Notes under the pieces: generated by a model | The model's input: the letters and a program-made list of their open reading frames with translations, nothing else | What the model was told of the DNA's origin: nothing | Databases searched by the model: none | Made by a program: the position numbers and the translations under genes | Shown: positions 12,575 to 28,048 of the stretch, in pieces | Layout of the letters: the number at the start of each line of letters is the position of its first letter | Numbering within the stretch: position 1 is the first letter of the stretch | Origin: an uncultured Anaerofilum sp. | Lineage (GTDB): Bacteria > Bacillota > Clostridia > Oscillospirales > Ruminococcaceae | Length of the DNA: 49,106 bases | Direction of reading: 5' to 3' | Assembly (NCBI GenBank): GCA_944385945.1 | Contig: CALWZD010000066.1 | Coordinates: 1 to 49,106, forward strand

Positions 12575-15500
12575 TTATCCGCCTCTGCGTTGACGTTCCA
12601 GCCGCATTTGTCTTTGGATCTCTTTCATGATCTGGTCTGCCAACTGGTGCGAACTTGGGATTTTGGGTTCCGAAACAGAATTACGACGCATCAGCTGTGT
12701 AATTTGTTCTTCTTGCTGTTTTAGTTGCTTTTCCAGCTTTTTCAAGGCACCCGTTTGCTGTTCCAGCTCTTGTGTCTGTTCTGTTTGCTCCTTTTTTATG
12801 GTACGCAGCTGATTTTGTGCCTCGATGGTCGGCTGTTGTGGCGGAGCATCCTGTTTTTGTGTCGTGCGACGATAAGAAAGTTCGCCCCTATCCGGATAGG
12901 AAAACGGTGAACTCCCCGAACGATTGCGCAAGGTCGATGCTTGCACCCCTGCTGCCTCCACCGCTGTCGATCGTACCGACAGATGATGGTGGATCGTTGT
13001 TATTTTGTTTGTCGAAGGCAACAGATTGCGATAGGCAGTTGTATTTTGCATTTTAACAAGCACATTTTGCTGCATGACCTGATTGATTCGGTGAAATTCG
13101 TTTCGGCTGAAAAGTTCTTTTACACCGTTTCCGACCAAACTTGCGCCAGACTTTTCCAACTCAACCAAAAATTTGCTCCACTGCTGCTGTGTTTCCAACG
13201 TTTTTTTGAGTAAGGTCACATTTTTTTCTGTGTTCTGTTTTTGTGGATTCAATTTACTTGTCGGCAGATTTGCAGATGGCTGTTTTCTCTCCGCCAGAGG
13301 CAATGTGCTGTGTTTTGGTGTAAATGTCGTTGTGCGATGTGCGGTTTGTGCTGCAGCTGTTTGTGGGTAAGTAAATCGTGATGGTTGCACCGAAGGCAGC
13401 GGTACTGATTTTTCATTTGACCGCTCGGATGCTCTGCTGGGCGACAAAGTTCCGTGCATTTTTTCGGCTTGCTTTTGAAAAATCACTGTCGGAACGTCTA
13501 TTTTTTGAGCATTCAACACGGAACGTTGTGGCAATGCCGCTGTTTTTGGCTGTCTTTGTTGCGCAGAACTTTGAACCGATTTGCCTACAAAATTCTTCAA
13601 AGAAAAACTCTGCTTTGCCTGTTCGCTTATTTTATGTGTAGTAGCGATGCTGTTTTTAAAAAGCGTATGTGTTTCGGTGTGCCTTGTTGTCAATGTTGGA
13701 AACTGCCCCAACAAAGGTGTTATTTGCAGATATGGCACCATGACAAAGCTTTTTTCATCATAAAAAATGTTTTGTCCATTGTTTATTGCAGGTTGCTTAT
13801 TCGACACGCTCCATTTTTGATTGTCTTTTGAAGAATCTCTATCCCTTTTTACAAAGTTTTGCGATGTTGAAGGTGTCACCTGATGCTGAATGTGACCTAT
13901 TGTAAAATGATAAACAGCATTGTTCGTTTTTTCGGTTACTCTTTGCAGCAACTCCCGCTCTCGGACAAACCTTTCCCGATGGCTTACAGGCAAAAGCGAT
14001 TCTTTTCTATGGAAAGGATTCGGCAATCCCTGTTGCACCGCTTGCATTTGCCGTACTGTCATGGGGTAAAACACATTTTGTGTTGACCACTCGTTACGGC
14101 TTGCAAACACATTCCACGCCTGTTGCTGCATACTATAGCGGTTCAACACGGTTTCGGCTTTTCCTCGTGCTTGATCTGCAACGACAGGAAAGTTTCCACT
14201 TTCTCGGCTACGGAAAGATGTGGTCGGCGCAGTAGGCACGGCTGTTTCCTTTGCCGGCTTCTCTGCCGATACAGTTTCTGCCATCACTGCATTTTGTGCA
14301 GCTTTGGGGATAACGTTGGTCGTACCACTTTTTTCGGAAACAACGATTGTTTCCCGTCGATTTTCTTGCACAAGGTTTTGCTGCAACGAAATATGATATG
14401 CTTCGCTGTTCGTTTTTTCGGTTACCCTTTGCAGCAACTCTCGATTTCGCACAAAGCTTTCCCGATAGCTTACAGGCAAAAGCCATTCTCTCTTGTAGAA
14501 CGGATTCGGCAATCCCTGTTGCACCGCTTGCATTTGCTGTACTGTCATGGGGTAAAACACATTTTGTGTTGACCAATCGTTACGGCTTGCAAACACATTC
14601 CACGCCTGTTGCTGCATACTATAACGGTTCCACACGGTTTCGGCTTTTCCTCGTGCTTGATCTGCAACGACAGGCAAAATCCTGTTTTCTCCACTACGCA
14701 AAGACAGGGTCGGCACAGCAGATACAGCTGTTTCTTTTTCCGTTCGTTCAGACCGGACATATTGCATCAATGGCAAAATGTCTTTCTGCTGATTAGGAAC
14801 TGCTGAAAAAGTTGTTGTGAAAAGGTTCGAAATGGTCGATACAGGATTTTGAGAGCGTATTTGATAGACGGCACCCTGTTTTTGAGGCGGTTCCGTATCA
14901 TATTTTAGGATATAGTTGGGTTTTGCATCGTTTGAAATCGCAGGATCTGTTTTGTGAATTACCTGCTGTTCTTTTACAAAACCACCTACTTTTTGTACTA
15001 AACTCGGATAGATAAAACTTTCGAAAGGTAAATTTCGACCGTTTTCGCTGTTGTGTAGGTGCAGAAGCTTCGTAAAAACACTGTTATTCAGAATTTCTAC
15101 GGTATCCCCACTCTGGGAAAGTTTTGAGGCGTAATGTTGCAGAATGTTTTGATTGTACGCTTCAAAAAAAGCATTGCTTTTGTACAGTCGTTGTGCATTA
15201 TGCTGTTGAATTTGATGGTACCATACTGCCAAATTCTGTGTAACATGGTTCTGTTGAGCCGTGTTTTCCACAAGATTCGGCATGAATTGTTGAAAAAAGT
15301 TCGTTTCCCATCCAAAAACTCGGCGTATGAGTTCTATATTTTTCTGCACACGATAGATGTCGTATTTTTGGGCAGATAGAAAAAACGCCTCGTCTTTTTT
15401 CGTATCATGCAAAGCGATAAAAGCATTTTGATGGTGGTATATCTTTGCATCAAACCTTGAGAAAACGGAACGCTTGCTCTCTTTGTTCCACGATAAATGC

Positions 15501-16183
15501 TGAACCGAAGAAACAACAGGCGGACCTATGCGCAATGTTTGCTGTGTAGAAAGCTGTTGTACCGACAGAGCATTGGTTTTATAGGAATTTTTTTGCTGCT
15601 GGGTATAAAATCGGTTTGCTGTGTAGTTGTTTTGATCTGTTTTAAAAACGGTGTTTTTTATGTTGATTTGTGGCGACCGACTGCGTATTTGATCGTTCGG
15701 CAAAGTGGGAGAAGAAAGTTGCAGATATTGCTGCAAAATATGCTGTATCGTTGCAGCCGTCGTCTGCTGTGATACTGCGGTCGTATGGTGTGCATTTTCG
15801 TACAAGATTTGACGCATTGTAGAGATTTGCCGTTGAATCGCATAGATCTGCTTATTCACGACCGTTGTGTTGTTTTGCTGTGTGGCAGATGAAAAAAACG
15901 TGTTTTTATTTAAAAAACTTTGGTAATAGGAAAGATTTTGAAAAATATTTTCCAAAAAAATGCGTGGATTCCCAATCCAAACATTCTCCCGATCGGTCGA
16001 GAGCTGTTGCAAAAGGACAGAAAACTCCATCAGTACATTTGCAAACACACCCTGTTCTTCTTCCGCAGGCTGGGATTGCAAAAAAACCAAACTTGGTGAT
16101 TCCACCAAAGAGGGGGAAACATTGGTATATTTTTCGATGATCCCAAGGGCAAACAAGCTGTTTTGCATCCCCAATCCACTCAC
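12575..16183 (-). CDS. Giant repeat-bearing protein of unknown function in the eCIS operon
   Basis: 1202 residues, the largest gene here, between the second tube protein and the LysM protein. The start is GTG at 16183 with GGGGAG 8 bases upstream. The N-terminal ~30 residues look ordered (NSLFALGIIEKYTNVSPSLV). Most of the rest is Gln-, Ser-, Thr- and Asn-rich and low in predicted folded structure. It contains an internal duplication with a 162-codon offset. The last ~100 residues contain a coiled coil (EQTQELEQQTGALKKLEKQL) and a basic tail. I recognise no family. Candidate roles are tape measure, internal scaffold, or a cargo/loading protein packed in the tube. The place does not match the usual Afp14 tape-measure position. 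Confidence 0.75.
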   Translation of the reverse strand: MSGLGMQNSLFALGIIEKYTNVSPSLVESPSLVFLQSQPAEEEQGVFANVLMEFSVLLQQLSTDRENVWIGNPRIFLENIFQNLSYYQSFLNKNTFFSSATQQNNTTVVNKQIYAIQRQISTMRQILYENAHHTTAVSQQTTAATIQHILQQYLQLSSPTLPNDQIRSRSPQINIKNTVFKTDQNNYTANRFYTQQQKNSYKTNALSVQQLSTQQTLRIGPPVVSSVQHLSWNKESKRSVFSRFDAKIYHHQNAFIALHDTKKDEAFFLSAQKYDIYRVQKNIELIRRVFGWETNFFQQFMPNLVENTAQQNHVTQNLAVWYHQIQQHNAQRLYKSNAFFEAYNQNILQHYASKLSQSGDTVEILNNSVFTKLLHLHNSENGRNLPFESFIYPSLVQKVGGFVKEQQVIHKTDPAISNDAKPNYILKYDTEPPQKQGAVYQIRSQNPVSTISNLFTTTFSAVPNQQKDILPLMQYVRSERTEKETAVSAVPTLSLRSGENRILPVVADQARGKAETVWNRYSMQQQAWNVFASRNDWSTQNVFYPMTVQQMQAVQQGLPNPFYKREWLLPVSYRESFVRNRELLQRVTEKTNSEAYHISLQQNLVQENRRETIVVSEKSGTTNVIPKAAQNAVMAETVSAEKPAKETAVPTAPTTSFRSRESGNFPVVADQARGKAETVLNRYSMQQQAWNVFASRNEWSTQNVFYPMTVRQMQAVQQGLPNPFHRKESLLPVSHRERFVRERELLQRVTEKTNNAVYHFTIGHIQHQVTPSTSQNFVKRDRDSSKDNQKWSVSNKQPAINNGQNIFYDEKSFVMVPYLQITPLLGQFPTLTTRHTETHTLFKNSIATTHKISEQAKQSFSLKNFVGKSVQSSAQQRQPKTAALPQRSVLNAQKIDVPTVIFQKQAEKMHGTLSPSRASERSNEKSVPLPSVQPSRFTYPQTAAAQTAHRTTTFTPKHSTLPLAERKQPSANLPTSKLNPQKQNTEKNVTLLKKTLETQQQWSKFLVELEKSGASLVGNGVKELFSRNEFHRINQVMQQNVLVKMQNTTAYRNLLPSTNKITTIHHHLSVRSTAVEAAGVQASTLRNRSGSSPFSYPDRGELSYRRTTQKQDAPPQQPTIEAQNQLRTIKKEQTEQTQELEQQTGALKKLEKQLKQQEEQITQLMRRNSVSEPKIPSSHQLADQIMKEIQRQMRLERQRRGG
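13921..14188 (-). repeat. In-frame internal duplication, copy A
   Basis: About 268 bases that are nearly identical to 14407-14674, with an exact 486-base (162-codon) offset. The encoded unit includes DQARGKAETV, RYSMQQQAWNVFASRN, STQNVFYPMTV, QMQAVQQGLPNPF and RELLQRVTEKTN. Weaker similarity continues on both sides, so the duplicated unit is probably the full 486 bases, with one part kept more conserved. Confidence 0.9.
14407..14674 (-). repeat. In-frame internal duplication, copy B
   Basis: Partner of 13921-14188 inside the giant eCIS gene. Differences are scattered and mostly conservative (for example WSTQ kept, Q/R and K/H changes), as expected for an older duplication under selection or repaired by gene conversion. 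Confidence 0.9.
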
Positions 16184-16205: not shown

Positions 16206-16634
16206 TCATCGTACTTCTTTCAACCCACTGTGAGCAATTTCTATTTTTTCAATCAACATTTCTCCCGATAGTGCGTCCAAATGAGAAAGTTCCCATTTTA
16301 CCACGACCGCCTGTTCACAACTGAATATTCTTGCCAGTTCGTTAGAAAAATCGTTGACCATAAGGACGATGCCGCCTTGGATCTCGGTTCCAGGCAGCAA
16401 CATTAATTTTTCCCCAAACAAAGGACGCATCTGTGCCCCTTTTTCCAAGGTCAAGGTATGAACCTGCTGCGAAGGCTTCAGCCATATCCACGGAGAATCG
16501 TTGAGTCCACCCTCCACATAGGTGTCGTATTCCACAGAGTTTTCCAAATTGGACGCTTTGGAGAACCCCAAAACATAGTTGCCGATCACTACCTGAAAAC
16601 GATTTACCGGCAGCATCTCTTTGCGTTCTATCAT
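16206..16634 (-). CDS. Second tube protein (T4 gp19-like, Afp5-type tube initiator)
   Basis: 142 residues of the gp19 tube family: NRFQVVIGNYVLGFSKASNLE, TLTLEKGA and the closing WELSHLDALSGEMLIEKIEIAHSGL. It is divergent from the main tube protein at 17329-17754 and likely forms the first tube ring(s) on the baseplate, as Afp5/Pvc5 do. I chose the ATG at 16634 (11 bases from GGAG) because the ATG at 16643 is only 2 bases from the site. The ribosome site overlaps the stop of the small -1 frame segment upstream. Confidence 0.85.
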   Translation of the reverse strand: MIERKEMLPVNRFQVVIGNYVLGFSKASNLENSVEYDTYVEGGLNDSPWIWLKPSQQVHTLTLEKGAQMRPLFGEKLMLLPGTEIQGGIVLMVNDFSNELARIFSCEQAVVVKWELSHLDALSGEMLIEKIEIAHSGLKEVR

Positions 16635-16649
16635 GGGCAGCATTTCTCC

Positions 16650-16844
16650 TTACACGTCAAAAATATTGGGTTTTTCATCGTTGAGTTCACGATTGATTTT
16701 GGAAATTTCGTTGCACCAGCGAATCCTGTCCCTATGGCTCATTTGCATGATCTCTGATTGGCTCCAATGGAAATAATACCCAATAAATGCCGTTTCTTCG
16801 TAAATTTTATCTTCGGGATATAATTCTATAGACTGGTTTCCATA
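16650..16844 (-). CDS. DUF6760-like segment, probably made by -1 frameshift from the chaperone-like gene
   Basis: A 64-codon open frame with family-like content (LYPEDKIYEETAFIGYYFHW, then MSHRDRIRW and EISKINREL). It resembles the small DUF6760-type proteins found in many eCIS clusters. There is no ATG, GTG or TTG in frame before the conserved part; the only in-frame ATGs fall in its middle. It lies in the -1 frame relative to the gene ending at 16826 and overlaps it. A frameshift at 16844-16850 would give one ~182-residue fusion. If so, the operon makes both a short and a long tail-assembly-chaperone form, as phages P2 (E/E+E') and lambda (G/GT) do. Use of a rare ATA or CTG start is the alternative. 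Confidence 0.72.
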   Translation of the reverse strand, partial: YGNQSIELYPEDKIYEETAFIGYYFHWSQSEIMQMSHRDRIRWCNEISKINRELNDEKPNIFDV

Positions 16845-17197
16845 AAATTTACGGGCACTTCTACCTCCTCGCCACAGTGAGGGCAGATGGTTTTATACAT
16901 GGGGGCTTCCATATTGTTGATGCGCTGGTACAGATCCTGCAAATATGCCAGATCCATTGTAAACAAGCCTTCGATAATGCGGGTATCTACCGCAGGCAAA
17001 GAGCCTAGTTTGGTTACTACCCTTGCCAGCAAAATGATGCTGAGATAGCCCGGATTCTGCTGTACACGGGGGTCACGCAGCGGAAGGATCTCGTCTGCTG
17101 CGTTTGCCAGACGCATCACGCCCTCACGATGCAACATTCCGCTATTATCTACGTATCCTTTTGGAAGAACAAAAGAAAACTCTGTCTGAAATTCCAT
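16826..17197 (-). CDS. Tail assembly chaperone-like protein
   Basis: 123 residues. The opening QTEFSFVLPKGYVDNSG and the blocks HREGVMRLANAADEILPLRD and ILLARVVTKLGSL are typical of the phage-tail-assembly protein encoded after the tube gene in eCIS clusters. A CPHC pair near residue 105 suggests half a zinc site. Position between the tube genes matches where tail phages encode their chaperones. It overlaps a -1 frame that may extend it by frameshift. Probable role is guiding tube or tape-measure assembly; it may not be part of the final particle. The ATG at 17197 follows AAGGTGAG. Confidence 0.78.
   Translation of the reverse strand: MEFQTEFSFVLPKGYVDNSGMLHREGVMRLANAADEILPLRDPRVQQNPGYLSIILLARVVTKLGSLPAVDTRIIEGLFTMDLAYLQDLYQRINNMEAPMYKTICPHCGEEVEVPVNFMETSL
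16844..16870 (-). promoter_or_regulatory. Candidate programmed -1 ribosomal frameshift site
   Basis: On the minus strand, the heptamer A AAT TTT (16850-16844) fits the X XXY YYZ rule in the reading frame of the chaperone-like gene. A strong Shine-Dalgarno-like GAGGAGG (16870-16864) lies 13 bases upstream, like the stimulator of dnaX frameshifting. Zero-frame translation ends 5 codons past the site, while the -1 frame runs on for 64 codons. Confidence 0.65.
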
Positions 17198-17328: not shown

Positions 17329-17754
17329 TTAAGAAACACGGGTCATGCCCTCATGTGCAACCTCGAGAGTTTCGATAGCTACTTCCGAAGACGTTGCATT
17401 GAAGTCAGGACCGGTATATTTTACAGGCCATGCGTTGATGATCTGCCAAGAAGCAACGGGGCTTTCGGTCTGATCGAGCAAGGTGATGGTGAGGGTCTTG
17501 CGCTGCACCTCTCCCTCGATGCCTGCGGTGATCCAATCGTACAGAACGGTGGTATCTGCCAAACCTTTTTTGAGGGTGATGTTGCTGTATTTTTTCAAGC
17601 CGGGCATTTTCATGGGGGTTTGTACCATATCGCCCTCACGGTATTCCATAACATCAATCGATGCATCAAAACCCGTTACTTCGGAAAATCCGCCTGCCTC
17701 CAAGCCGTCGATCTCCACCTTAAATCTAAATCGTCCATGCTGATAGCTTGCCAT
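17329..17754 (-). CDS. Main inner tube protein (T4 gp19-like)
   Basis: 141 residues. HGRFRFKVEIDGLEAGGFSE, VTGFDASIDVMEYREG, NITLKKGLADTTVLYDW and the closing ETLEVAHEGMTRV are hallmarks of the phage-tail tube family (Afp1/Pvc1). It polymerises as hexamer rings to form the injected tube. It lies 16 bases downstream of the sheath gene with a strong AAGGAAGGAG site, consistent with very high expression. A stable hairpin follows the gene. Confidence 0.93.
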   Translation of the reverse strand: MASYQHGRFRFKVEIDGLEAGGFSEVTGFDASIDVMEYREGDMVQTPMKMPGLKKYSNITLKKGLADTTVLYDWITAGIEGEVQRKTLTITLLDQTESPVASWQIINAWPVKYTGPDFNATSSEVAIETLEVAHEGMTRVS

Positions 17755-17770: not shown

Positions 17771-19510
17771 TTATTCTGCTTCACCGGTTTTTTGAGAAAT
17801 TCTAAAGATAACAAACTCAGCAGGCTTTACAGGAGCAATGCCGATAACGCAAACCAGCCGACCATTATCAATATCATCTTGGCTCATGGTATCTCTGCCA
17901 ATATTAACAAAGAATGCCTCCGAAGTAGAGCTTCCTGCCAACGAACCACTTCTCCACAATCCGGTGAGGAACACTTCGATGGTACGTTTTACACGCACCC
18001 ACAAAGCCTCGTCATTGGGCTCGAATACGACCCAGTTGGTGTTTGCTTTGATGGTTTCTTCCACAAAGATAAACAGGCGACGTACGTTGACATACTTCCA
18101 GCTGGGGTTGCTGGTTGCAGTTCTTGCGCCCCAAACACGGATGCCCTGCCCGGGGAATGCACGGATCAGGTTTACGCCCTTGGGATTCAGAATATCCTGT
18201 TCGCCCTTGTTGAACTGACAATCCAACCCTACACAAGCACGTACAACTTCGTTTGCAGGTGCCTTATGTACGCCTCTGGTGTTGTCTGTACGAGCATAGA
18301 TGCCCAAAACAGAACCGGAGGGAGGAATGGGAATGTTTTTCTTATCCAGTGGGTCGAATACTTCCAGCCAAGGATGATAGAATGCTGCATAGTGGCTGTC
18401 GAAAATATTGCGATGGGTCAGGATGTCCTGCACTTTCTTTGCATCTTTGGGCATATCCAAAACAGCAAAGCGACTGCCCAGATTTTCACAGTGACTTACC
18501 AAAGACAGCTGTACATTGGGATCGGTCAAGCCGGGAACTGCCATGATGGACACAACGTCGTTGTCCAAAAATGCCTGGATACCGGTACGCTGTCCGGCAC
18601 CGTTGTCAACACCGATAAAATCGGCAGGCGACAGGGAGGCAACCGAACCATTGCTGCCCTCTGCCAGCGAAATTGTCAAGAACGACTCGCTCTCTTGTCC
18701 GGCTGCCAGTTCTACAAAGGGTGCAACCGGCTGCTCGGCAGCTGTTCCTACATAATGAACGCTGACCAAGTCGGACTTCGACAGCTTTTTGTCTACATAG
18801 TTTGCTGTTTCGATGTTGAAAGAAAGGTTCTCGTAAAATTCTTCAGTATCTTCGTACTTTACTTCCAGATTAAACTCACAAGTAGCAAGCAGTTTGCTGG
18901 GAACAAGGTTTTTGTCCACAACGTTCTGGGTAAATTCCTGTGCAAACTGGATCAGGTTATCCTGCACTTTCACAATGCGGTTGTATACTTTTTCATTTTT
19001 GTCTGTGAATACAACTACATCGCCGGCATTAAAACCTGCTGCATTTTTTACCAGATATTTTTTTCCGTTGTTGGTTTCTACTTCCTCCAAAATCTGGGTC
19101 TTTGCTTTGCTTGCAGGAGTGATGATGACACGAACGTTATCGCCCCATGTACCCGGATTCTTTGCAGTGATTTTCAGCAAAGGAGCTTCTTGGGAAGGAA
19201 CAAAGCCTTTTGCACATTTTGCATCTCCCGGTGCTACACGGGCAACAAAGCAGCGTGAACCGCCATTGATGAAGAAATGTTCCACTGCATATGCCAAAAA
19301 GCGGTATTCGCCATACTCGCTTTCGGACAGATACCCGCCGTACTTTCTGCGAAAATCGGCAAAGTTGGTGATCAGCTCAGGAACACCTTTCACGGGGCCT
19401 CGCTCTGCCAAGCCTACAAATCCTGCTGTGCTGGTGCCTACGCCCTCTACGGGCTTTCCACCTGATTCAAATTCTTCTACATAAACTCCCGGTGATAAAT
19501 ACTCAGCCAT
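17771..19510 (-). CDS. Contractile tail sheath protein
   Basis: 579 residues. The N-terminus (LSPGVYVEEFESGGKPV, TSTAGFVGLAERGP, YGGYLSES) and the C-terminal block (FLTGLWRSGSLAGSS, EAFFVNIGRD, PAEFVIFRI) are the core sheath domains of the Afp/Pvc/phage family. The middle is the variable surface domain. Only one sheath gene is present; Afp and PVC have three. Contraction of this sheath drives the tube into the target. The start region is unusual: the AGGAGG site is 33 bases from the ATG, with a hairpin in between. Confidence 0.94.
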   Translation of the reverse strand: MAEYLSPGVYVEEFESGGKPVEGVGTSTAGFVGLAERGPVKGVPELITNFADFRRKYGGYLSESEYGEYRFLAYAVEHFFINGGSRCFVARVAPGDAKCAKGFVPSQEAPLLKITAKNPGTWGDNVRVIITPASKAKTQILEEVETNNGKKYLVKNAAGFNAGDVVVFTDKNEKVYNRIVKVQDNLIQFAQEFTQNVVDKNLVPSKLLATCEFNLEVKYEDTEEFYENLSFNIETANYVDKKLSKSDLVSVHYVGTAAEQPVAPFVELAAGQESESFLTISLAEGSNGSVASLSPADFIGVDNGAGQRTGIQAFLDNDVVSIMAVPGLTDPNVQLSLVSHCENLGSRFAVLDMPKDAKKVQDILTHRNIFDSHYAAFYHPWLEVFDPLDKKNIPIPPSGSVLGIYARTDNTRGVHKAPANEVVRACVGLDCQFNKGEQDILNPKGVNLIRAFPGQGIRVWGARTATSNPSWKYVNVRRLFIFVEETIKANTNWVVFEPNDEALWVRVKRTIEVFLTGLWRSGSLAGSSTSEAFFVNIGRDTMSQDDIDNGRLVCVIGIAPVKPAEFVIFRISQKTGEAE

Positions 19511-19619: not shown

Positions 19620-22199
19620 TCAGATGACCTGTCGCTGTGCCATTTCGTAAAAATATCCCTTTTTTTCCATCAGTTGCTGATAGTTTCCTTCTTCCACCAA
19701 TCTGCCTTCGTCCAATACCAAAATGCGGTCGCATTTTTCCACTGTGCTTAGACGATGCGCCACCACGACCCGTGTAGCTCGCAGTTTTTCCAAACTTTTG
19801 CAAACGATGTTTTGTGCAGCGTTATCCAGTGCAGAGGTAGCCTCGTCAAAATATAATATCTTGGGTTTTGCAATGATGGCACGTGCGATCAAAATGCGCT
19901 GGCGTTGTCCACCCGAAATGGTGCGGCTGTTTTCGTCCAAAATCGTATGCAAGCCCATCGGCATTCGGGCAATGTCATCCTGTAAGTCCACGTCCCGAAG
20001 TGTTTTTTCCACCAGTTCTATCGGGGCACCCGGTGCCATGACCGTGATGTTTTCATATACACTTCCTGCAATGAGTTTTCCGTCTTGCAATACCACGCCG
20101 AACTTTTTTCGCAGTTCACGTTTATCCAAACTGTCTATATCTCTGCCGTCGTAGTAGATCCGTCCATTTTGAGCCTGTTCAAAACCCAACAGCAATTTCA
20201 ACAACGTTGACTTTCCGCTGCCAGACGAGCCCACGATGCCCACATATTCGCCCGAGCGGATATGGAACGAAAGCCCTTTCAAAACCTGTTCTTCCCCATT
20301 TTCATAGGAAAATTGCAGGTTATTCACTTCAATATCACCGGTCAAGTTCCCCGGCATATGTTGTGCTTCCGTTGTTTCAGACTCTCCCTCCGGCAGCGTA
20401 TTCAGCAATGGTTTACTGCGTCGGTACAGCGGAACCATCTCTGTCATCTTTACCAAAGCCGTTGCAAATTCCAGCAATGCACCGGAAACTGCTCCAAAAG
20501 CGGTCGTAAATCCAACAAAAGCACCTATGCTGATGTTTGAAAAAGCTTCTTGGGACAAAACCATATAAATCATCAAGAGAAACACTGCCTGCGCACTGCC
20601 CTTGATGGTCTGCGCTGCCAGCTCCAGCCGCTGTTTTTTTGCACCGAGGGATTTCATGCGGGTGTAAGGTTCCAGATATTCCCGAACTGCTCGATTCTCC
20701 ACACCGGCGACACGTATCTTTGAGATGCCGTTCATAAACTGGTACATCACCGAGCTGCTTTTGCTTTCCAACTCTGCTACTTGTTGCTCGTATCGCATTT
20801 GACAAACGCCCAACAGAACAAAGATCGCCAAAAATACAAACATCGCCACCAAGGCAACGCCCGACAGACTTGCAGAAAATTGCATCATTTTTCCAAAATA
20901 GAAAAATGAGAATACCGCCGTTAGAAAAAAGCCACTGTATACCTGCGCCAGTTTTTCAAACAAGATCGTGATACCAATGGCACGTTGTGCCAAATCTGCC
21001 GAATCGTAACGGGATAAAAAACTTTCCGGCAACCGAAACATACGGTCGTACACTGCATTTTGCACGGCGTAACGCATGGTGGAGGTGCCACGAAATGCCG
21101 TAAAATTCTTTACAATGGTAAACAGTAAGTTTCCGAAAGCACACGCCAACAGCACGGCGCAAAGTTGCAAAATGGAGTTATCGCTGTGCAAAGGAATCAG
21201 CCTGTCGTAAACCAGCTGATTGACGGTCGGCAACAGCAATCCAATCAAAACTGCCACCAATGCCAGCGACCAGCTGACAACCCAATCTCTGCGATAGCTT
21301 TGCGAAAAGCCAAATCGAACCAGATCCCACAAATTCATCTTTTTTGAGGGGAATGGTCGGTAAACCATCTCTGCTCGGTCTTGCAAGGTTTCGGCATAGG
21401 CATCATCAATGCGAACTTTCGTGCCTTCTGCAAGGTTATACGCATCGTACTTTCCGGGGCTTCTGGGCAAACATACCACCGGTATCCCACGTTCTTTGGT
21501 ATAGGCAAGCAAAGCACCACTGTCCTGTCGATGCCAGCCTGTTTCCAGTTGCACCTCTCGGCAGCTAAAATGTGATACTCGTGCAACGCCTTTTAAATCG
21601 AATCGTCTTCCGCAGCAGTCACGCACTGTTTCGAACGATGCGATGGAGATATTCAGCTTTTGGCAAAGGAACGCAGCTGCATCATAGATACGGTTGCCCG
21701 ATTCTTCAAGCTGTCCCAATTCGGACTGATGGAATAATTGCAGGATCATCCCCAACACTTTTTGCTGGGTAGCCTGCTGCTCTTTTGCGCTGGCGTAGAA
21801 GTACACTTCCTCTTTTACCAGATTCATGTTGTACTTTTCTACCATCTGTTCCTCAAAGGCAGAGGGGTCAAACATTTTCAGTCCTGCACAGGTTGCAAAT
21901 TCTGTGCAGATGTCCTCTGTTTGCTGCCTATTCTGGGCTTGATGCAACTGCAAAACAGCACTATCCAACGCAACAAGACCAAAGACCCATTGCGTCTGCT
22001 GTTCATCTTTCCAGCAGAGAGTCGGTATTTTTTCTTCGGGCGCAGCTTGATGGATCAAAAACCGTCGCCCGGGCGTTTTTTCCTTGTAAGGCAACAGATA
22101 AACCAGAACTTGCCCTTCGATGACCTGATAGAATCGGTTCGGCTCTTGTGTAAAATGGCATTCACCGCCCCGAAGTTCGATCTTATCCATTACGACCAC
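19620..22199 (-). CDS. NHLP-type export ABC transporter, permease/ATPase subunit
   Basis: 859 residues. The N-terminal ~130 residues look like a cyclic-nucleotide-binding or cupin-like fold (MDKIELRGGECHF, YQVIEGQVLVYLLP). A degenerate peptidase-like region follows, then a six-helix membrane domain from about residue 310 and an ATPase domain from about 620. The ATPase has Walker A (GSSGSGKST), signature (SGGQRQR), Walker B (ILYFDEATSALD) and H-loop (VVAHRL). This order matches the second ABC subunit of NHLP bacteriocin exporters. The start is GTG at 22199 with GGAGG 5 bases away. It lies 21 bases after the C39 transporter and 110 bases before the sheath gene. No NHLP-leader precursor gene is seen nearby. 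Confidence 0.85.
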   Translation of the reverse strand: MVVMDKIELRGGECHFTQEPNRFYQVIEGQVLVYLLPYKEKTPGRRFLIHQAAPEEKIPTLCWKDEQQTQWVFGLVALDSAVLQLHQAQNRQQTEDICTEFATCAGLKMFDPSAFEEQMVEKYNMNLVKEEVYFYASAKEQQATQQKVLGMILQLFHQSELGQLEESGNRIYDAAAFLCQKLNISIASFETVRDCCGRRFDLKGVARVSHFSCREVQLETGWHRQDSGALLAYTKERGIPVVCLPRSPGKYDAYNLAEGTKVRIDDAYAETLQDRAEMVYRPFPSKKMNLWDLVRFGFSQSYRRDWVVSWSLALVAVLIGLLLPTVNQLVYDRLIPLHSDNSILQLCAVLLACAFGNLLFTIVKNFTAFRGTSTMRYAVQNAVYDRMFRLPESFLSRYDSADLAQRAIGITILFEKLAQVYSGFFLTAVFSFFYFGKMMQFSASLSGVALVAMFVFLAIFVLLGVCQMRYEQQVAELESKSSSVMYQFMNGISKIRVAGVENRAVREYLEPYTRMKSLGAKKQRLELAAQTIKGSAQAVFLLMIYMVLSQEAFSNISIGAFVGFTTAFGAVSGALLEFATALVKMTEMVPLYRRSKPLLNTLPEGESETTEAQHMPGNLTGDIEVNNLQFSYENGEEQVLKGLSFHIRSGEYVGIVGSSGSGKSTLLKLLLGFEQAQNGRIYYDGRDIDSLDKRELRKKFGVVLQDGKLIAGSVYENITVMAPGAPIELVEKTLRDVDLQDDIARMPMGLHTILDENSRTISGGQRQRILIARAIIAKPKILYFDEATSALDNAAQNIVCKSLEKLRATRVVVAHRLSTVEKCDRILVLDEGRLVEEGNYQQLMEKKGYFYEMAQRQVI

Positions 22200-22220
22200 T
22201 GCTCCCTCCTTTTTTAAAAT

Positions 22221-24407
22221 TTATACCATGCACAACTCATCGTCTGCTTTTACATCGGACAAGTCTGTTTGAACCAGTCGCTGATAATGCCCCTGTTGCC
22301 GGATCAGTTCGGCATGGCTGCCTCGCTGAACGATCTTGCCGTTGTCCATAACAACGATCTCGTCGCAATCTCGAATTGCCGAAAGACGATGCGCTACAAT
22401 AATGCAGGTACAACCTCTGCGCTTGATATTATCTAAAATGCGCTTTTCTGTGATCGGGTCCAATGCCGACGTTGCCTCGTCCAAAATCAAAATGGTGGGA
22501 TTGGTGACCAACGCTCTGGCAATTTCCATACGCTGTCGCTGACCGCCCGAGAGGTTGCGCCCTTCTTCGGTCAACCGATATTCGTAAGCCCCCGGCTTTT
22601 TGGTAATGATTTCGTGAATGCAGGCATCTTTGGCTGCCCGAACCATGTCTTCTTCCAAAATGCTGTGGTTCCACATGGTAAGGTTTTCCCGAATCGTTCC
22701 GGAGAACAGCATAATATCCTGACTTACGCTCGAGATACTGGAAAAAATGACCTCTTTGGGAAGTTTTTTAAACGGAACGCCATCAAAGCATATCTCGCCC
22801 TGCCACGGCAGATACAATCCGCCAAGAAGCTTGGAAACGGTAGACTTGCCACACCCCGAACTGCCGACAAATGCAATGGAACTTCCACAATCAAGCCGGA
22901 AAGAAAAATCCTCGACAAGTGGCGGTTGCAATCTGCTGTAACCAAAGGAGATATTTTTCACCTCCACCTGTCCCGACAATTTTTCTGCCATATTCACTTT
23001 TTCTTCTGTCTGGGTATACAGTTCGTCTTGTTCGTATTGTAAAATATCCTGCAACTGTCCCATTGAAGATTTCATTTCCTGAATTTGCTGGATAAACTTG
23101 ACCAACTGTTCTACCGGAGCCGTAAAACTTGCCAAAAGCCCTGTAAATGCCACCAACATTCCGACCGTCAGCTGTCCATTGATAATTTGGATACTGCCGA
23201 TCATCAGCACTAATATAGATGCTAACTGAGAAGTAAAAGTAGGCACTGCATCCAAGATGCCCTGCAATCTGCCCAACACCTGCTCGAGCCGAATGGTTTT
23301 TGCATAATGCCCCTGAATACGGTTCACATATTCATTCTCGGCTCCGGACGCTTTGAGAGTGCTTGTAATGCTGAGCCCTGCATAAATTGCGCCGATAAGT
23401 TTGCCTTCATCCTGCTGCATTTTGATGGTATTATTTGCCACTGCGGATGCAGTCAACTTCATTACAATAAGGTTGACTGCCACGGCGACCAGCCCCACCA
23501 AAGTGAGTAAAGGGCTGTAAAGCAGAAGCAACACCAAATAAAAGCAAGCAGTAAACAGATTTAAAACCGTTTCTGCCAAGTCGCCTGCCAAAAACTCGCT
23601 TACTCTGTCGTTGTGTCCCACACGTTCCGCTAGATCACCTGCATATCGTTGGTCGAAAAATTGGATCGGCAAGCGAAACAGATGGTTTAGTAGTTGATGG
23701 CAACTAACCAGCGACAACTTGTTTTGCAGCCTGTCCAACAGCCAACCACGGTATACATGGAGCCAAGCCTGAAAAAGGATCGTGGCAAATACCAAAACGA
23801 AAAAACCTTGCGCCCAGTGGTGATTTTTAGCCAGTAGAATGTTGTCTACAAACAGTTGCGACAGCAAGGGTAGCAATAATCCCGGAAATACCAGAAAAAA
23901 ACCGATAGCTGCGATGGCTGTCAGTTCTCTGTACTGCCCTTTCAAACGTTGCTGTACAAAACGCATGAAAGTGCGCTGATTTTTTTCGGGCTGGATATGT
24001 TCGCCTGCCTGAAAAGTAAGCACCACTCCTGTGAAACCCTCGTCGAGTTCCTGGATAGTCAGCTTTCGTCTACCCACGGCAGGGTCGTTTAGATATGCGC
24101 TGTTGCCTTTTCTTCCCTCATAGACCACAAAATGATTAAAATTCCAATGGATGATGCACGGAGGTGTACATTCCAAAAGCCCCTGCAAGCCTTTTTTATA
24201 TCCCTTTGCTTTCAGCCCCATATTCCGAGCCGCTCGCAGCAGATTTGCCGCATTCGACCCATCACGGGAAACACCGGTTTCTACCCGAACCTGTTCCAAT
24301 GGCTTATAAATTCGGAAATACGCCAGTATCATCGCTAAAGAAGCTGCTCCGCATTCTCTCGCTTCCATCTGGAAGATGGTGGGAACTTTTGCATATTGCT
24401 TTTTCAA
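22221..24407 (-). CDS. NHLP-type peptidase C39/ABC transporter
   Basis: 728 residues. An N-terminal C39 protease domain has Gln13, Cys19 (EARECGAASLAM), His92 (NFNHFVVYEG) and Asp108 (LNDPA), so all active residues are present. A membrane domain (about 160-440) and an ATPase domain follow (GSSGCGKST, LSGGQRQR, ILILDEATSALD, IVAHRL). Such proteins cut leaders after double-glycine sites and export the peptide. The start is TTG at 24407, overlapping the stop of the adaptor gene (TTGA), with GAGGGGG upstream, so it is translationally coupled. Confidence 0.88.
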   Translation of the reverse strand: MKKQYAKVPTIFQMEARECGAASLAMILAYFRIYKPLEQVRVETGVSRDGSNAANLLRAARNMGLKAKGYKKGLQGLLECTPPCIIHWNFNHFVVYEGRKGNSAYLNDPAVGRRKLTIQELDEGFTGVVLTFQAGEHIQPEKNQRTFMRFVQQRLKGQYRELTAIAAIGFFLVFPGLLLPLLSQLFVDNILLAKNHHWAQGFFVLVFATILFQAWLHVYRGWLLDRLQNKLSLVSCHQLLNHLFRLPIQFFDQRYAGDLAERVGHNDRVSEFLAGDLAETVLNLFTACFYLVLLLLYSPLLTLVGLVAVAVNLIVMKLTASAVANNTIKMQQDEGKLIGAIYAGLSITSTLKASGAENEYVNRIQGHYAKTIRLEQVLGRLQGILDAVPTFTSQLASILVLMIGSIQIINGQLTVGMLVAFTGLLASFTAPVEQLVKFIQQIQEMKSSMGQLQDILQYEQDELYTQTEEKVNMAEKLSGQVEVKNISFGYSRLQPPLVEDFSFRLDCGSSIAFVGSSGCGKSTVSKLLGGLYLPWQGEICFDGVPFKKLPKEVIFSSISSVSQDIMLFSGTIRENLTMWNHSILEEDMVRAAKDACIHEIITKKPGAYEYRLTEEGRNLSGGQRQRMEIARALVTNPTILILDEATSALDPITEKRILDNIKRRGCTCIIVAHRLSAIRDCDEIVVMDNGKIVQRGSHAELIRQQGHYQRLVQTDLSDVKADDELCMV

Positions 24408-24994
24408 TGCTTCGCCCCCTCAATACCCTGCAAGGTCTGCATCCCCACTGTTAAAGGAAGCAAGAACGAAAACGGTGCTTTTTCTTCCAGCACGATACTG
24501 CAATCCAACAGTGTTCCCTCAAGAAGTTGTACCTGCTGCCCCTTGGTGATCTCACACTCCACCGCTACCACAGGACCATTGCTCAAAAAATATTCCACAA
24601 GAGTTTCGTTATCCAGTTGATCTTGCATTTCTTCCCTTGTGCTTACATAGGGTTCAACCGCAACGACCTGTGCCGTTAACTCCGTTTGACTTTGTGAATC
24701 ATCCGCCGATGGCTGCAACACTACTTTCATACCTTGCTGTACCTGTTTTGCAGATTCTAAAGAGAGGTAGCAAAATACCGTTTGATTATTATTGGCATCC
24801 GCCTTTAGAATGCCTGTTCCATCTACGCATAAAGGCAATCTTCCAAAAACTGCCCACATCAACGCTGCCACAACGATCATTGTTGCAGCAAAAAACACCA
24901 ACCAAAAAGACGGTTTCACGATGGTGATCATTCGATCTAATTGATCGGTAGAAACAAGTTTTTCCAGCGATTTTTTTCTGAAGATGTCTGCCAT
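24404..24994 (-). CDS. HlyD-like adaptor, NHLP export system
   Basis: 196 residues starting MADIFRKKSLEKLVSTDQLD, which matches the opening of NHLP secretion adaptors. One membrane segment lies at residues 30-50. The rest is a small beta domain without the long coiled coil of Gram-negative HlyD proteins, as expected in a one-membrane cell. I chose 24994 by family similarity; a longer frame to 25030 exists. The 4-base overlap with the C39 transporter supports one export complex. Confidence 0.8.
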   Translation of the reverse strand: MADIFRKKSLEKLVSTDQLDRMITIVKPSFWLVFFAATMIVVAALMWAVFGRLPLCVDGTGILKADANNNQTVFCYLSLESAKQVQQGMKVVLQPSADDSQSQTELTAQVVAVEPYVSTREEMQDQLDNETLVEYFLSNGPVVAVECEITKGQQVQLLEGTLLDCSIVLEEKAPFSFLLPLTVGMQTLQGIEGAKH

Positions 24995-25109
24995 AATGAT
25001 TGAAACTCCCGTATAGTTTAGAAACATCACAGTTTTATTGGCGGTTGTCGTTTTTCGGCATTTTCCCTTAAAAAATGTCAGATTCTGTCTAATTCTATCG
25101 TTGTAATTA

Positions 25110-27010: not shown

Positions 27011-28048
27011 TCAGATCTGCACCACCACCAACGAAACAGCCGGCAGCCACGCCACACGGTTTCCTGTTCGTACCTGCGCCCATGGTCTTCCGCTGCGCTG
27101 CGCAAGCTGCTGCACCTGCCATATATCCCGCCCACTTCCCGGAAGGCGTACACCGTCCAGAAGGTCAAAACACACGGTCACATAATCGCCCGGCTGGGCT
27201 TTCCGGCGCATTTGAACATATACATACAACAGTTTATTTGTCGGATTGCAGCGCACTTCGCCGCCCTCGTACCAGTAACCGGGGTACTTTCTTTCCATCC
27301 GCTTTGCAATTTCTTTCTTATCCTGCGCCATCTTCTTGACGGCAGCAGGGCCAAAGTCGCTGTGATTCTTGCGCTCTCTGGGTGGACGCAAGCCCTTTGA
27401 TGCACACCACTTCTTTTTTCCTTTGGGCGCTTTTGTAATGTACATACCAAGCCCAGAAAGCCCGTGGCGATCAAGATCTAACCGGCGCACCTGATTGCGG
27501 CACCCCAATTTCCAAAGACTTTCTACCTCATCCATCGGCAGCAAGCCATCCATAACAATATGATGATGGCAGCGGATTTCTTCAGCATCTTCCCCGCCCT
27601 CTTGCCATTCGGTCACATATACATACCGTACAGCAGGCAAGCCCGCTTTCTTTCGGCGATAATTCAATCTCTTTATGTACCGGCTGATGTTTCCCTGTGC
27701 TTCCTCAAAGTCCAGCGGCTCTTTTCCGGGTGCATAGGTGAAAGTAGCCCACAAATCATTGGGGCCAAAGTTCTCATTGATGATACGGGTACAGGCTTTA
27801 CGGCTGTTACGCTCGTTTAGATCACGCTGGGCGGCAAGGTGCTTTTCTCGCTTTACATTGGCGGGCAAGCGGGTAAATTCCGGGTATACCTCTACTTCCA
27901 TCTGGCTACCTGCTTGTATGGTCTTGGTTGCGTATACATACCGCTTTTGGCTGTTCAGAAGATTGTCCAACTGGTTTGCGTTCAGTTCTTCAATGCGGTT
28001 GTTGTTAAGTCCTTCGTAATTGTATGGAATGTACTTCTTCTTTTTCAT
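27011..28048 (-). CDS. HUH-type rolling-circle replication initiator
   Basis: 345 residues. Three Rep motifs are visible: motif 1 LWATFTYAPGK (residues ~99-109), the HUH metal site CHHHIVMDG (His161-163), and the tyrosine motif GMYITKAPKGKKKW with Tyr203 as the likely nicking residue. Such enzymes nick one strand and start rolling-circle replication. The ATG follows AAGGAGG by 9 bases. No helicase domain is present. The leader upstream contains an antisense RNA candidate, as in RCR plasmids. This implies the element replicates when excised, or that Rep moves it by nicking. Confidence 0.82.
   Translation of the reverse strand: MKKKKYIPYNYEGLNNNRIEELNANQLDNLLNSQKRYVYATKTIQAGSQMEVEVYPEFTRLPANVKREKHLAAQRDLNERNSRKACTRIINENFGPNDLWATFTYAPGKEPLDFEEAQGNISRYIKRLNYRRKKAGLPAVRYVYVTEWQEGGEDAEEIRCHHHIVMDGLLPMDEVESLWKLGCRNQVRRLDLDRHGLSGLGMYITKAPKGKKKWCASKGLRPPRERKNHSDFGPAAVKKMAQDKKEIAKRMERKYPGYWYEGGEVRCNPTNKLLYVYVQMRRKAQPGDYVTVCFDLLDGVRLPGSGRDIWQVQQLAQRSGRPWAQVRTGNRVAWLPAVSLVVVQI

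Follow-up and report, generated by a model that had tools for sequence, protein, structure and literature searches.

Candidate programmed -1 frameshifting between the tail assembly chaperone and DUF6760 in contractile injection system clusters of Bacteria and Archaea

In the window, the whole stretch of 49,106 nt from an uncultured Anaerofilum sp. that was analysed here (GenBank assembly GCA_944385945.1, contig CALWZD010000066.1), the gene of a tail assembly chaperone is overlapped at its 3' end by a second reading frame, in the -1 register, which encodes a DUF6760 domain. Judged from the sequence and its relatives, it is very likely that programmed -1 frameshifting at this overlap gives rise to a 123-aa chaperone and a rarer 182-aa chaperone-DUF6760 fusion, in the manner of G/GT of phage lambda. 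The overlap and its phase, the slippery motif, the open -1 frame, the missing start codon and the conservation of the arrangement can be read directly in the loci compared. The chaperone (123 aa, phrog_508, with a C-terminal CPHCG knuckle) is encoded in the zero frame of the minus strand, from an ATG at 17197 to 16826, and its gene ends in GAG GAG GTA GAA GTG CCC GTA AAT TTT ATG GAA ACC AGT CTA TAG, the stop codon at 16828-16826 closing the short form. The slippery heptamer A AAT TTT (16850-16844), identified from the sequence and the homologues, lies in zero phase 22 nt ahead of this stop, and an SD-like GAGGAGG (16870-16864), a possible frameshift stimulator, ends 13 nt before it. From 16844 to 16650 on the same strand, the -1 frame comprises 64 codons and a TAA (16652-16650) and reads AAA TTT TAT GGA AAC CAG TCT ATA GAA TTA from the heptamer into the domain; the predicted fusion junction is ...VPVNF followed by YGNQSIELYPEDK. 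The frame matches DUF6760 (PF20546) with an E-value of 8.9e-16 and 58.2 bits, against a curated cut-off of 27. The codons from heptamer to domain include no ATG, GTG or TTG; the sole, unusual, start candidate is an ATA overlapping the TAG. The first-pass annotation had already described a DUF6760-like 64-codon -1 frame that overlaps the chaperone end with no usable start, and a correctly phased A AAT TTT with GAGGAGG 13 nt upstream; coordinates, codons and the Pfam match bear out these points.

Homologous loci were collected with searches keyed on DUF6760 and not on the frame relation, and thus without bias toward the -1 arrangement. Whole-genome PF20546 searches (E-value of at most 0.001) gave matches in 15 of 197 genomes in the window's family, 21 of the 394 searched in the order and 13 of the 398 in the phylum, these sets overlapping. 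To those were added the best 80 of 579 confirmed stretches from a scan of a genome collection with the DUF6760 alignment, and 18 of 34 plasmid records. Both chaperone and DUF6760 were recognised by profile in 147 of 149 loci; the two outside are L038, where DUF6760 falls below the Pfam cut-off and is not found by our own profile, and L039, with no chaperone. The latter (about 1446-1647) is a second DUF6760 copy in its genome (G330) and stands after an apparent tube gene, with no chaperone by profile, having its own ATG and GGGAGGA upstream. DUF6760 lies in the -1 frame of the chaperone in 143 of the 147 loci. Two of the remaining four look like one-base indels (L051, L137), and in the other two, from two cyanobacterial plasmids (L146, L147), the profile picked a second chaperone-like gene, while inspection by eye places a G run before the DUF6760 start; in these plasmids two chaperone-like genes stand close together upstream of DUF6760. 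Near-duplicates were merged, which removed 19 of the 143 and left 124 non-redundant loci from Bacteria and Archaea.

In 115 of these 124 loci the final 45 nt of the chaperone gene contain a slippery motif in zero phase, against 9 and 6 loci for the other two phases. The concentration at the gene end is pronounced, with 126 zero-phase sites in 1860 positions there versus 20 in 13244 positions in the rest of the same genes, and other long ORFs of the same loci and strand (at least 120 aa) carry such a motif near their end in only 2 of 407 cases. Counted by source among the -1 loci (overlapping sets, near-duplicates included), the motif is present in 15/15 loci from the family, 18/20 from the order, 12/12 from the phylum, 15/16 from plasmids and 71/79 from the genome collection. 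The motifs take several forms (AAATTTT, TTTTTTN, GGGGGAA/G, GGGGGGA and similar) and were assigned to three classes, AAATTTT (class A), TTTTTTN (T) and a GGGGG run (G), which were defined after inspection of the junctions; L037, counted as motif-less, bears A AAC CCT in this stretch of 45 nt, a heptamer that none of the three classes covers. Within the window's family, all 15 PF20546 loci combine the -1 overlap with a slippery motif, AAATTTT in 14 and TTTTTTA in one, and the earlier expectation that the heptamer itself would be conserved in relatives thus holds at this range, whereas at more distant loci AAATTTT is mostly swapped for another slippery motif. A relative of the same genus has a junction sequence identical to that of the window. 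On a quick tree the motif class, absence counted, switches at least 22 times. Since the motif changes while its phase and place stay, a single conserved peptide cannot account for it. Codon choice can be compared where the peptide does stay: every Asn-Phe encoded in the final 45 nt of the 124 chaperone genes is written A AAT TTT (41/41, the cases being related and not independent), whereas elsewhere in the same genes AAT stands to AAC as 85 to 74 and TTT to TTC as 151 to 37. AAATTTT also occurs in genes with a GC3 of up to 0.89.

From the motif to the domain, the -1 frame is open in all 115 motif loci. No ATG, GTG or TTG lies in this interval in 90 of them, and 15 have no table 11 start codon whatsoever before the domain. 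Over all 124 loci, 91 have no ATG, GTG or TTG before the domain and 33 have one (25/115 with the motif and 8/9 without), and homologues in which DUF6760 could use its own start, the situation that the first-pass annotation had named as contrary to frameshifting, therefore exist as a minority. In the window's family, the absence of a start is kept in 13 of 15 loci, the other two having one of these codons. Cultured relatives whose junction has none of the three are Anaerotruncus colihominis DSM 17241, Heliobacterium mobile and Methanosarcina sp. DH2. At the motif-less loci, the ATG, GTG or TTG overlaps the chaperone stop in 7 of the 8 cases, for instance in Brevibacillus and Tumebacillus, where an interrupted T run goes together with an ATG that overlaps the TGA. 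The association between motif and start is strong when kinship is ignored (Fisher p 9e-5), and a kinship-aware test, with 1 supported pair only, had no power. At two loci (L021, L026) the -1 linker exceeds its usual length by about 35-47 codons, is still open, and has an ATG near the domain; the T run of L026 is broken.

These start codons bear on translational coupling, according to which terminating ribosomes would initiate a separate DUF6760 protein where its first codon overlaps the stop, with ATA in that place in the window and GTG or ATG in other loci, and which we regard as unlikely. At the chaperone stop, 57 of the 115 motif loci have ATA as the overlapping codon, usable if AUA is read as a start, and 24 have CTG, GTG or ATG, but 34 have GTA, CTA or TTA, which speaks against coupling, as do the 15 motif loci devoid of any table 11 start. 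Coupling gains some support from public annotation, in which DUF6760 starts at ATA in Nostoc, at CTG in S. cadmiisoli and at ATT in Pseudanabaena. Among the nine plasmid records that annotate the frame, four start it at ATA (L053), CTG (L140), ATT (L145) or a TTG inside the domain (L055) and five at ATG or GTG; for L146 no DUF6760 gene is listed, in a gene table stated to be incomplete. Coupling would also suit Streptomyces, Haloferax, Brevibacillus and Tumebacillus, where ATGA or GTGA overlaps offer plausible starts, and the 25 motif loci that have an ATG, GTG or TTG; in five Streptomyces-type motif loci, where a GTG overlaps the TGA (GTGA), reinitiation would suffice, and frameshifting and reinitiation are consequently indistinguishable there. 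The prevalence of ATA can, on the other hand, be explained by the peptide alone. In 83 motif loci the overlap codon is the third before a conserved Tyr-Pro and, because of the overlap, can encode only I, L, V or M, which makes these loci unusable as evidence of peptide conservation; of the 32 motif loci free of this forcing, 27 still have one of these four residues at the third position ahead of Tyr-Pro, for the most part encoded by ATC, ATT or CTG. A hydrophobic residue is kept within the translated peptide, and ATA (Ile) is thus explicable with no role as a start. AUA start reading is weakened by the start-less loci, by the GTA, CTA and TTA overlaps and by this peptide conservation in the unforced loci, and coupling also leaves unexplained why the -1 frame is open from the motif onwards and why the motif is placed in zero phase.

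Slippage of the transcript on a homopolymer run, in place of ribosomal slippage, could also join the two frames, and runs of seven T (L082, L083, L087) or of five to six G in some relatives would lend themselves to it; we consider it highly improbable, given that AAATTTT in the window contains no run longer than four and that the dependence on zero-frame phase fits ribosomes. The remaining reading, which takes the DUF6760 frame for the decayed remains, or a misassembled copy, of a formerly fused or separate gene, retains next to no probability: the window does come from a draft assembly (149 contigs, 80% complete), but the comparative data, with the same arrangement in 143 of 147 loci, among them that of Anaerotruncus colihominis DSM 17241 (L085), whose genome is complete, and a conserved DUF6760 frame, rule it out. 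Beyond the window, chaperone -1 frameshifting is probably old and general in the contractile injection systems of Bacteria and Archaea that bear DUF6760, kept through replacement of one motif by another and exchanged for an overlapping start in a few lineages (Brevibacillus, Tumebacillus, Corallococcus, perhaps Streptomyces and Haloferax); these lineages may use the overlapping start in place of the frameshift.

Elements that could stimulate slippage were compared between the motif classes. SD cores stand at -20 to -6 of the slip site in 13/34 class A loci (4.4 expected), 15/24 class T loci (2.3 expected) and 42/57 class G loci (7.4 expected), the expectation being computed from the same chaperone genes. 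For classes T and G the commonest spacing is 10-11 nt, and class A, to which the window with its 13 nt belongs, has spacings of 13-16 and 7 nt. Near the slip site Glu is preferentially written GAG (123:53, vs 406:416 elsewhere in the same genes; p 8e-7). As a conserved Glu-Val contributes part of the SD-like sequences near the site, we take the SD enrichment as supporting and not as decisive. In the window, GAGGAGG upstream of the heptamer would probably help a slip. Downstream RNA folding exceeds chance mainly in class G, with class mean z values of -0.84 (A), -0.72 (T) and -1.62 (G) and values below -2 in 22/57 G, 6/34 A and 5/24 T loci; at the window site we found no downstream structure beyond chance (folding z +0.59 and -0.41). 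The slippery heptamer of E. coli dnaX is A AAA AAG. The present sites share with dnaX an internal SD upstream of the slippery site, which here lies 10-11 nt away in loci of classes T and G and 13 nt away in the window, whereas neither the dnaX heptamer nor its downstream structure has a counterpart in the window. The dnaX-like layout proposed at first can therefore be kept for the upstream GAGGAGG and not for a downstream RNA structure.

For the two proteins, alignments were built from 55 sequences each, the window's own and 54 of 65 offered. All 55 chaperones match the tail assembly chaperone family phrog_508 at an E-value of at most 0.001 (best 1e-11; window member 3.1e-4), and on this sequence evidence the protein is homologous to phage tail assembly chaperones. 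Its AF2 model (mean pLDDT 82.7) was searched by fold against BFVD and gave 8 matches at E-values of at most 0.001, of which 2 are named T4-like baseplate hub assembly protein; with an rmsd of 7.5-10 these matches superpose in part only, and the predicted fold may be called similar to some phage baseplate assembly proteins. T4-like phages are said, to go by the title of a 2022 report by Vladimirov, to use a mechanism other than frameshifting. Four of the 55 chaperones match phage Mu gp41 (PF23746, Gp41_Mu; best 5.5e-4), and the two relatives differ in their shift, which is -1 in the eCIS genes and -2 in Mu, the latter according to the KS10 paper (PMC2628397). No significant match among solved structures was obtained by sequence for either alignment (best E 0.1 and 0.21), nor by fold for the chaperone, the only one of the two searched in this way. 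DUF6760 is modelled by AF2 as a small three-helix domain (mean pLDDT 84.1); its fold has no match at an E-value of at most 0.001 among predicted viral structures, and the domain has none at an E-value of at most 0.1 in 50,697 phage records. Among its 55 members, 4 match the tail protein family phrog_1756 (best 2e-4) and 23 match phrog_10636, the function of which is not known.

The genes around the overlap follow the order sheath, tube, chaperone, DUF6760 frame, second tube protein, 1202-aa protein, CIS_tube, hub-like, spike and baseplate; the coordinates given below are on the minus strand. The tail sheath protein (17771..19510; PF04984, E 1.6e-19; PF17482, E 3e-18) and the tail tube protein (17329..17754; PF06841, E 2.1e-47) are encoded upstream of the chaperone. 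Downstream of the DUF6760 frame comes the gene of a second tube or CIS5-like protein (16206..16643; PF06841, E 4.2e-13), whose matches to TIGR02241 (E 5.5e-11) and CIS5_fam (E 3.4e-6) are both under the curated cut-offs. It is followed by the 1202-aa protein (12575..16183), a putative tape measure judging from its position; it gave nothing over the curated cut-off in Pfam or NCBIfam and no PHROGs match, and a stretch of about 70 residues is present twice in its translation. In tail phages the chaperone gene lies between the tail tube and tape measure genes; here a tube gene is upstream, and downstream a second tube gene precedes this long protein with no family match. With a CIS_tube protein carrying LysM (PF19266, E 5.8e-34), this gene order and the lack of any Pfam capsid match in the 18 frames scanned, a subset of the window's ORFs, the cluster looks like an extracellular contractile injection system (eCIS). 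Adjoining it are two ABC exporters (within 19620-25030, minus strand), one of which has a C39 bacteriocin-processing peptidase domain (22221-24407), and near these lies a 208-aa ORF (24404-25030, minus strand) with no Pfam match. Farther along the same strand, an ORF at 27011-28048 has a replication-associated domain (PF23343, REP_ORF2-G2P; E 1.1e-8), hinting at a mobile element near the eCIS cluster.

The P2 genes E/E+E' are a further case of a tail assembly chaperone frameshift. With P2 and with lambda G/GT the present arrangement shares a chaperone gene after the tail tube gene, a -1 overlap, a slippery site near the stop and a start-less downstream domain; unlike them, it stands in an eCIS-like cluster, its chaperone has a CPxCG knuckle, its DUF6760 extension is absent from the phage records searched, and the next gene in the window is that of the second tube protein, ahead of the putative tape measure. 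For lambda, PMC5009743 gives a gpG to gpGT ratio of 30:1 and describes the role of both proteins in tail assembly. GGGGGAA, the 'fivetwo' motif of PRFect, is the commonest motif of the eCIS G class, whereas the window and 14 of the 15 family loci use AAATTTT; in SEA-PHAGES genomes it accounts for about a thousand annotated sites, and nearly all frameshift genes annotated there are tail assembly chaperones (PMC10885494). Phage tail assembly chaperone frameshifts are accordingly a known kind, as PMC10885494, PMC5009743, PMC3711429 and PMC2628397 attest. The first-pass annotation knew of no description of such a frameshift for eCIS, and the literature searched, a body outside which most subscription papers lie, yielded none either, nor any paper naming DUF6760; in PMC13222765, PMC8528098 and PMC8718954 'frameshift' concerns other matters.

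In the model that we infer from these observations, for slippage itself, its frequency and the role of each form, one mRNA would give two proteins. Most ribosomes would terminate at the TAG and release the 123-aa short form. A smaller share would move back by one base on A AAT TTT, probably aided by the upstream GAGGAGG, and continue in the -1 frame to yield the 182-aa fusion of 118 chaperone residues and 64 residues with DUF6760. Short form and fusion would be made in a set ratio, like gpG and gpGT of lambda. By the same analogy, during assembly the short form may coat the protein that determines length or nucleates the tube, while tube subunits may be recruited by the DUF6760 part of the rare fusion.

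The setting of tube length and the assembly of the particle are largely unsettled in eCIS. The conserved frameshift supplies a definite model open to mutational tests, in which a chaperone is accompanied by a less abundant fusion with DUF6760. Such a frameshift would also account for the odd starts given to DUF6760 in public records (ATA, CTG, ATT and a TTG within the domain), and cloned clusters in which the overlap has been recoded would lose one of the two products.
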